This document shows, one piece after another, positions 3,453 to 10,424 of a stretch of DNA of 64,000 bases. The translations under genes were made by a program, and so were the position numbers. Under the pieces are notes generated by a model. That model worked only from the letters and a program-made list of their open reading frames with translations. It had not been told where the DNA came from and ran no database searches. Positions within the stretch are counted from its first letter, which is position 1. Every line of letters begins with the position of its first letter. Source of the DNA: Armatimonadota bacterium (GTDB lineage: Bacteria; Armatimonadota; Fimbriimonadia; Fimbriimonadales; Fimbriimonadaceae); the NCBI GenBank assembly GCA_018268255.1, contig JAFDWX010000001.1, forward strand, positions 496,001 through 560,000, written 5' to 3'.

Positions 3453-4526
3453 ATGGCAAAAAAGCTAAAAATCGGACTTATCGGCGCTGGGGGAATTGCC
3501 CGGGGCGCCCACGTACCAGGATACAAATCGGTCTCGGAAAAGTGTGAAATCGTCGCCGCTTGCGATCCCAGCGAATCGGCAATCGAGGAACTGAAAAAGG
3601 AGGTCGGTGAGGTCAAAGTCTACAGCGAGTACAAAGACTTGCTGGCGGACAAGGAAATTGACGCAGTCTCAGTGACCACCCCGAACGCGTTTCACATGCA
3701 ACCGACGATCGACGCCCTGAAAGCCGGCAAGCACGTCCTTTGCGAAAAGCCGTTGGCGATGAACGGAGAAGAGGCTCGTCACATGTGCGCGGCTGCACGC
3801 GAAAGCGGAAAAATCCTGCAAGTGGCTCTGCAAATGAGATTTGGCTCTGGTGCTCAGTTCCTGCACAAGTTCATTGAAAATGGGCACTTGGGAGACGTGT
3901 ATTACGCTCGCGCCAAAGCTCTGCGCCGCCGAGGAGTACCGCACTGGGGCGTTTTCATCGACAAGGAAAAGCAGGGCGGTGGTCCACTCATCGATATCGG
4001 CGTTCATATCTTGGACCTGACGTTGTTCCTCATGGGCTATCCCAAGCCGATCAGCGCAACAGGGAAAACCTGGGACACGCTCGCTAAAGATCCGAAGAAC
4101 GCCAACTTCTGGGGAGATTTCGACAGGAGTAAGTTTACGGTCGAAGACTTTGCGGTCGGTTTTATCCGATTCGATAATGGAGCTTGCGTGACGCTCGAAA
4201 GCTCATTCATGGCCAACATTGAAGGCGATCCATTTGAGACGCAGCTTTTTGGTACCGAGGCTGGAGCTATCGTAAAGGGCTGGGGCGATGAGCCAGTCAC
4301 CATCTTTAAGGAGATGGATCAGCAATACTTCGAAATGAAGCCGCAGCGGCTGCCGCACGTACCATCGTCGCACACGGCTGAAGTCCAAGCGTTTGTGGAT
4401 GCGATCCTCGAAGGCAAGCCGTCACCTGTGCCGGGAGAGAATGGCTTGACCCTAAACGCCATTTTCGACGCGCTCTACAAGAGTAGCGAAACTGGCAAGG
4501 AAGAAGCCGTTAACGTGAAGTTCTAG
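3453..4526 (+). CDS. Gfo/Idh/MocA-family NAD(P)-dependent oxidoreductase (second copy)
   Basis: A 357-residue paralogue of the preceding enzyme. It has a Rossmann loop (GAGGIARGAHVPG), the conserved CEKPLAMN segment and an IDIGVHILDL helix that carries the family's active-site His in the second domain. ATG 3453 is preceded by AGGA at suitable spacing and begins directly with the NAD-binding strand. The gap to the previous gene is 73 bp, so the pair probably forms one transcription unit. The two proteins differ strongly outside the motifs and are unlikely to be isozymes. The physiological substrate is unknown, probably a sugar or inositol derivative. Confidence 0.88.
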   Translation: MAKKLKIGLIGAGGIARGAHVPGYKSVSEKCEIVAACDPSESAIEELKKEVGEVKVYSEYKDLLADKEIDAVSVTTPNAFHMQPTIDALKAGKHVLCEKPLAMNGEEARHMCAAARESGKILQVALQMRFGSGAQFLHKFIENGHLGDVYYARAKALRRRGVPHWGVFIDKEKQGGGPLIDIGVHILDLTLFLMGYPKPISATGKTWDTLAKDPKNANFWGDFDRSKFTVEDFAVGFIRFDNGACVTLESSFMANIEGDPFETQLFGTEAGAIVKGWGDEPVTIFKEMDQQYFEMKPQRLPHVPSSHTAEVQAFVDAILEGKPSPVPGENGLTLNAIFDALYKSSETGKEEAVNVKF

Positions 4527-4539
4527 GCAATAAAGTCAC

Positions 4540-4577
4540 AAGTCTCATGTTCCTTGCCGATTAGGAACATGAGACTT
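4540..4577. promoter_or_regulatory. Perfect 15-bp inverted repeat over the start of the PEP-CTERM gene
   Basis: The left arm 4540-4554 (AAGTCTCATGTTCCT) is exactly complementary to the right arm 4563-4577, with an 8-base loop. The right arm contains the likely ATG (4569-4571) and the AGGA that could serve as its ribosome binding site. The repeat begins 14 bp after the stop of the upstream oxidoreductase. No T-run follows, so a standard intrinsic terminator is not supported. In RNA the hairpin would hide the start codon. Confidence 0.75.
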
Positions 4578-5402
4578 CGATTTGTGGCGAGCATGCTCGC
4601 GATTCCCTTGGGCAGCGCGATGAGCGCGGCTTCCATTGTCAGCATCACGAACGGGACCAACCAGGTCGCCCTTTCGCTGAGCAACTTGATCACCAACGGG
4701 AGCTTCGAGGCGCAGGTATCTTCTGTGCCCTTGAACTCGTTCTGGGCAACGGGTACCTCGATGAGTCCCACCGTTTCCCTGACAGGTTGGACTGGTGCTG
4801 GTCAGACCAACGCCTACGCAACCTGGGGCAACGACGGAAGTCCCGCCTTGGGAATCAAGGGAAGTGCTCCGATCCCAGATGGGCAGGTAGGTTTGTACTT
4901 TGGCGCGTTCATCGTGTCGGGCATGTCCGCCGCGCCGATCTTTCATCCAAACGGCACGATTACGTTTGCATCCAACCCAAATATTCAGGCTGATCCGCTC
5001 TACGGGCCGGTAACGCTAGAGCAAACCCTAACAGGTTTGATTCCAGGGGACAACTACCTGCTTGACTTTTGGGCCAGTGGCGAAGCGGCCGTTACCGGAG
5101 CGTGGCAGGAGGGTTTGTTCGGTCTGGATATCACGGGTGAGGCGACGACTTATTTGGCGGTGCCCAGTGGAGGCGGACCTCAAGGGGCATTCCAACGATA
5201 CAAAGTGCTGTTCAAACCCACGTTTTCCACCACTACTATCAAGTTCACCAACTGGGGGCACATCACGTCGAATGGCTTTGCCAGCGAACTATGCCTGGAC
5301 GATGTGATTCTGAATCACCAGGCTGTGCCGGAGCCACCCGAGTGGGCCGCCCTTGCACTGGGGACCATCGGAATCCTAGTGGGCCGGCGACGCTCAGTGT
5401 AG
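4569..5402 (+). CDS. PEP-CTERM sorting-signal protein
   Basis: A 277-residue secreted protein. The N-terminal hydrophobic stretch (about residues 4-20, ending AMSAAS) is a signal peptide. The C-terminus is a textbook PEP-CTERM tripartite tail: VPEPPEW, a hydrophobic helix, then GRRRSV. Family knowledge says such tails are recognised by an exosortase for export and attachment; no exosortase gene is in this window. The middle part, rich in Gly, Thr, Asn and beta-strand patterns with NLITNGSFE near the N-terminus, resembles a carbohydrate-binding-type jelly roll, but that is a guess. An in-frame TTG at 4554 is an alternative start. The start region lies in a perfect hairpin. Confidence 0.85.
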   Translation: MRLRFVASMLAIPLGSAMSAASIVSITNGTNQVALSLSNLITNGSFEAQVSSVPLNSFWATGTSMSPTVSLTGWTGAGQTNAYATWGNDGSPALGIKGSAPIPDGQVGLYFGAFIVSGMSAAPIFHPNGTITFASNPNIQADPLYGPVTLEQTLTGLIPGDNYLLDFWASGEAAVTGAWQEGLFGLDITGEATTYLAVPSGGGPQGAFQRYKVLFKPTFSTTTIKFTNWGHITSNGFASELCLDDVILNHQAVPEPPEWAALALGTIGILVGRRRSV

Positions 5403-10164: not shown

Positions 10165-10424
10165 CTGGGCTCCGGTCCGGCGGAGCAAGGGCACGTGGCA
10201 GGCGTCCCTGTGCAATCGGCTCGCTCAGATTTCGCGCTGGAAACCCCAGCCATGTCGTTGACGTAAAACCCAGAACCCTTGAACATCATTGCCGTGGGCT
10301 GGATCAGTCTCCGCAGACTTCCCGAGGCTCCGCACGAGCAGTCGGTCAGGGCGTTTTCGGTGATACGTTGTTCGACCTCAAAGGTCTTTTCACAGGTCTT
10401 GCATTCGTATACGTACGTAGGCAT
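10161..10424 (-). CDS. FmdB-type zinc-ribbon protein
   Basis: An 87-residue protein opening with MPTYVYECKTCEKTFE and continuing to CSCGASGSLRRLI, a zinc ribbon with two Cys pairs as in the FmdB regulatory-protein family (CxxC...CxC). The FKGSGFYVNDM segment is also typical. Further Cys residues (DCTGTPATCPC) lie in the low-complexity tail. Members are widespread but functionally undefined; a transcriptional role was proposed for the founding protein. It reads towards the ClpS pair and overlaps its last codon. Confidence 0.9.
   Translation of the reverse strand: MPTYVYECKTCEKTFEVEQRITENALTDCSCGASGSLRRLIQPTAMMFKGSGFYVNDMAGVSSAKSERADCTGTPATCPCSAGPEPS

Follow-up and report, generated by a model that had tools for sequence, protein, structure and literature searches.

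The perfect hairpin at positions 4540-4577 of the window, i.e. the whole 64,000-nucleotide stretch of Armatimonadota DNA analysed here, is probably (probability of about 0.6) a hairpin of the terminator type at the 3' end of the upstream Gfo/Idh/MocA family oxidoreductase gene; it overlaps and would insulate the start of the following PEP-CTERM gene. Computation gave the position of the hairpin, its class, its stability and its absence from orthologous PEP-CTERM starts; termination or 3'-end formation, and insulation, are inferred. In the proposed mechanism, the hairpin would fold in the nascent RNA just beyond the Gfo/Idh/MocA stop codon and would help to end or trim this transcript, its right arm falling on the beginning of the following gene because the intergenic gap is only 42 nt. 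Since the start codon would stay paired in RNA that reads through, translation of such RNA should not begin at ATG 4569, leaving the PEP-CTERM gene insulated from the upstream promoter.

The Gfo/Idh/MocA gene (3453-4526, forward strand; Pfam PF01408/PF02894) has orthologs in nearly all searched relatives. The left arm of the hairpin (AAGTCTCATGTTCCT, 4540-4554) begins 13 nt past its stop codon and is followed by an 8-nt loop (TGCCGATT, 4555-4562) and by the right arm (AGGAACATGAGACTT, 4563-4577), all on the forward strand. The right arm holds AGGA (4563-4566) and the start codon (4569-4571) of a gene for a 277-aa PEP-CTERM surface/export protein (4569-5402, forward strand). The arms are complementary at 15/15 positions with no mismatch, exactly as and where the earlier note had described them. 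In-silico folding of the hairpin alone at 37 C gave a dG of -23.2 kcal/mol, and its 141-nt context folded at -57.5 kcal/mol (z = -4.5 versus dinucleotide shuffles). It is the longest perfect-armed inverted repeat within the window, and order-1 Markov sequence yields about 0.3 stems of at least 14 bp per 464 kb, hence a chance origin of the 15-bp stem is unlikely. A repeat or mobile element was ruled out, as a search of the genome allowing up to 3 mismatches gave no more copies of either arm than chance would, and so was a known RNA family, the Rfam search being without match.

As expected of an intrinsic terminator, a stable hairpin thus lies shortly past a stop codon. The U-tract that should directly follow the stem was not found in the 8-nt tail (CGATTTGT), and the hairpin is therefore called terminator-type rather than a canonical intrinsic terminator. 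The absence of a T-run, pointed out previously, is strictly right, but the tail still has 4 T of 8 without a run of 4, which is typical among the post-stop hairpins of this genome.

These were surveyed in 40 stretches of 20 kb (L070-L109) together with the window, 864 kb in total from the 3.19-Mb genome, in which genes were called by a small codon-based script, crude and with unreliable start sites. Perfect stems of at least 11 bp are about 10 times commoner than in Markov sequence, the majority without a T-run. Stems of at least 10 bp are densest in convergent gaps (1.81 per kb), while co-directional gaps have 0.38, divergent gaps 0.07 and gene interiors 0.02 per kb (p = 0.001 for convergent plus co-directional versus divergent gaps). 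In this sample, the median distance from the stop codon to the beginning of such a stem is 19 nt, and the tails hold a mean of 3.4 T of 8 versus 1.8 in the background, with TTTT in only about 1/7. Stop-linked stems with weak U-tracts are, as judged from sequence, the signature of transcript-end hairpins; with its 13 nt after the stop and 4 T of 8, the hairpin at 4540-4577 is an ordinary member of this class.

Comparison with relatives points the same way. Strong post-stop hairpins of unrelated sequence were found at several Gfo/Idh/MocA orthologs (G001, G004, G005, G007 and G010 among others); G001 has a textbook terminator with a T-run, and one of these hairpins carries a T7 run. Clear orthologs of the PEP-CTERM gene, on the other hand, were found in four relatives only (G002, G018, G011 and G086; about 50-55% identity), and the start hairpin was absent in 4/4. 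Because post-stop hairpins recur at Gfo/Idh/MocA orthologs and none was found at the orthologous or other correctly assigned PEP-CTERM starts that were scored, the hairpin was assigned to the upstream 3' end, with which it seems to go better than with the PEP-CTERM start. The PEP-CTERM orthologs adjoin different genes in the three relatives whose flanks were read, and the Gfo/PEP-CTERM junction was found in no searched relative. Position, class membership and relatives thus favour the alternative that the earlier note had put second, namely a terminator that extends into the start of the following gene. Several points go against this reading: a classic U-run is missing, the A+T content of the stem is rather high for a terminator, and strong post-stop hairpins were absent at several other Gfo/Idh/MocA orthologs. 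It also leaves the expression of the PEP-CTERM gene unexplained, ATG 4569 being without a leaderless -10 element.

The identity of the downstream gene, proposed earlier from the sequence, was borne out by its PEP-CTERM signal (VPEPPEWAALALGTIGILVGRRRSV) at the C-terminal end of the protein, above the TIGR02595 cut-off; about 70 motifs above this cut-off were counted in the whole 3.2-Mb genome. ATG 4569 is likely the true start codon, judging from the short signal peptides of the orthologs, which align at the same point. This start is also supported by a PEP-CTERM paralog from this genome, whose beginning reads MRLRFLSAAALG where the gene at 4569 has MRLRFVASMLAI. The end of AGGA is only 2 nt from ATG 4569, a poor Shine-Dalgarno spacing; many other PEP-CTERM genes of the genome have AAGGAG-type sites at a good distance.

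The expectation that the hairpin blocks initiation unless melted agrees with folding of RNAs that contain the left arm. In every RNA that begins no later than about 4545, ATG 4569 was fully paired, with an unpaired probability of 0.001. The footprint of a ribosome terminating at the upstream stop codon would barely reach the stem, whose left arm lies 13 nt beyond, and simple translational coupling between the Gfo/Idh/MocA gene and ATG 4569 is therefore unlikely.

Among the alternatives, the hairpin may be a neutral by-product, i.e. the left arm may have arisen recently as an inverted copy of the start of the gene, without function, for instance when the template was switched at a shorter imperfect repeat. 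The perfect identity of the arms, the lack of a copy elsewhere and a junction seen in no searched relative are all consistent with this, and such a hairpin would carry no cost if the PEP-CTERM mRNA lacks the left arm. The strong tie of the hairpin class to stop codons genome-wide and the location of this hairpin at the usual stop distance of the class argue against it, and the explanation is considered rather unlikely.

A dedicated translational switch of the PEP-CTERM gene, in which the hairpin would be opened as an RNA thermometer, as a protein-bound leader or as a small-RNA target, had been the preferred option of the earlier note and is now unlikely. In its favour, in-silico folding leaves the start codon wholly sequestered, and this masking is unusual since the other PEP-CTERM starts of the genome are open. 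RNA thermometers such as ROSE, fourU and similar elements are imperfect, marginally stable stems. The hairpin resembles them in pairing the ribosome-binding region and the start codon, but its stem has no mismatch and remains closed at temperatures far beyond those of growth: only 2% of the start region was unpaired at 75 C and 5% at 85 C by in-silico folding. Melting within the physiological range was thus not observed, which argues against a thermometer. A conserved cis-regulatory leader should retain its structure, but none was found in the four orthologs and Rfam gave no match. A hairpin common to PEP-CTERM starts was likewise rejected, being absent at 27/28 scored starts in the genome; the sole start with a stem (L016) is a mis-assigned one. 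Finally, no enclosing stem was found at any of 260 divergent starts, where a leader-based switch would be equally useful.

How the PEP-CTERM gene could be expressed was considered from promoter motifs. In the sampled stretches and the window, the occurrence of TANNNT (often GGTANACT) ahead of divergent genes is highest at -12/-13 relative to the start codon, and an SD-like motif is present at only about 1/3 of starts in the genome sample. The motif position suggests leaderless-type promoters and abundant leaderless transcription in this Armatimonadota genome. Leaderless-type TANNNT promoters are described for Deinococcus-Thermus (PMC12340547). No leaderless -10 element was found at ATG 4569, and a sigma-70 consensus scan gave no match near the hairpin. 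A weak candidate only is the TANNNT-type -10-like element TAAAGT (4531-4536, forward strand), from which RNA would start inside the left arm, too early to free the ATG, most of the stem still forming. It lies 16 nt upstream of another ATG, that of a speculative 5-codon leader ORF (4547-4564, forward strand; MFLAD and stop) spanning the left arm and the loop and ending 4 nt ahead of ATG 4569.

It is improbable that one young gene-specific palindrome serves both to end the upstream transcript and to gate the surface protein, with a masking relieved only by translation of the 5-codon leader ORF or by mRNA starting inside the hairpin. Least probable, with very little chance of being right, is a gate in which RNA from TAAAGT carries the open leader ORF and its translation melts the stem for reinitiation at ATG 4569: the distance from TAAAGT to ATG 4547 is near the leaderless spacing of the genome, but the CATG palindrome by itself brings about this ATG, chance alone yields many TANNNT matches, and the orthologs do not have the element.

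The putative terminator-type hairpin at 4540-4577 is of a kind already known, and it is a new instance of modest interest. From many bacteria, hairpins without U-tracts that lie at stop codons or close to them are described at transcript ends derived from RNA-seq (PMC8355165). Like these intrinsic terminators without a full U-tract, it combines a strong stop-near stem with a weak or degenerate U-tract; unlike them, its right arm also holds the next start codon. In Bacillus subtilis, a large hairpin between spoIIGA-sigE and sigG was proposed to mask sigG initiation in read-through RNA (PMC5942855). The large intergenic hairpin described here would similarly mask initiation of the next gene, the start being sealed in RNA coming from upstream as far as in-silico folding goes. 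RNA from sigG's own promoter cannot form the large hairpin, whereas RNA from the candidate TAAAGT at 4531-4536 would still form most of the stem. In a compact genome, what looks like a translational switch can thus be a hairpin that belongs to the 3' end of the gene before it. The results also suggest that in the phylum Armatimonadota U-poor terminator-type hairpins lie close to leaderless-type promoters, and because of this closeness a single hairpin could insulate neighbouring genes.

Hairpins overlapping start codons were also counted elsewhere. Start-enclosing stems of at least 11 bp were found at about 4/145 co-directional starts with gaps of 20-100 nt, none of the 260 divergent starts and 4/3,210 random coding positions, counts that comprise few cases in a post hoc test and include ATG 4569 by hand, since the script had picked a later start. 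The four co-directional cases are ATG 4569 and ATG 2405 of the window, a deoB-like gene in L109 and tatC in L088. The hairpin at 2374-2418 of the window (12 bp with one G-T, and a 21-nt loop with GGGAG and TATCTT) lies 15 nt past the stop at 2358, and the edge of its right arm holds ATG 2405, the start of a Gfo/Idh/MocA paralog. The L109 hairpin (10171-10202, minus strand; 12-13 bp) lies 9 nt past the upstream stop, and the first letters of its right arm are the ATG start codon of a phosphopentomutase (deoB)-like gene (Pfam Metalloenzyme). CATAAT is present 7 nt before this ATG, inside the hairpin, and a leaderless deoB-like mRNA without the left arm could escape it. Neither hairpin was found in the respective orthologs.

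The tatC 5'-end hairpin (L088:2020-2052; G000:C7, about 92020-92052), of 9-18 bp and coding RNSS..DPEEFR, lies 35-50 nt past the stop of a conserved secreted-type gene of about 480 aa. It is kept in most family members (orthologs L137-L143, L147 and L150) and covaries strongly, with 8/15 pairs changed on both sides and a covariation score of 0.448, compared with 0.19 in shuffled and at most 0.17 in slid controls (11 sequences), and it is the sole start-proximal hairpin found conserved by covariation. It thus appears to exemplify a retained element, nothing comparable being seen at the PEP-CTERM gene. Possibly a terminator or a translational element of tatC, it looks more interesting than the hairpin at 4540-4577.
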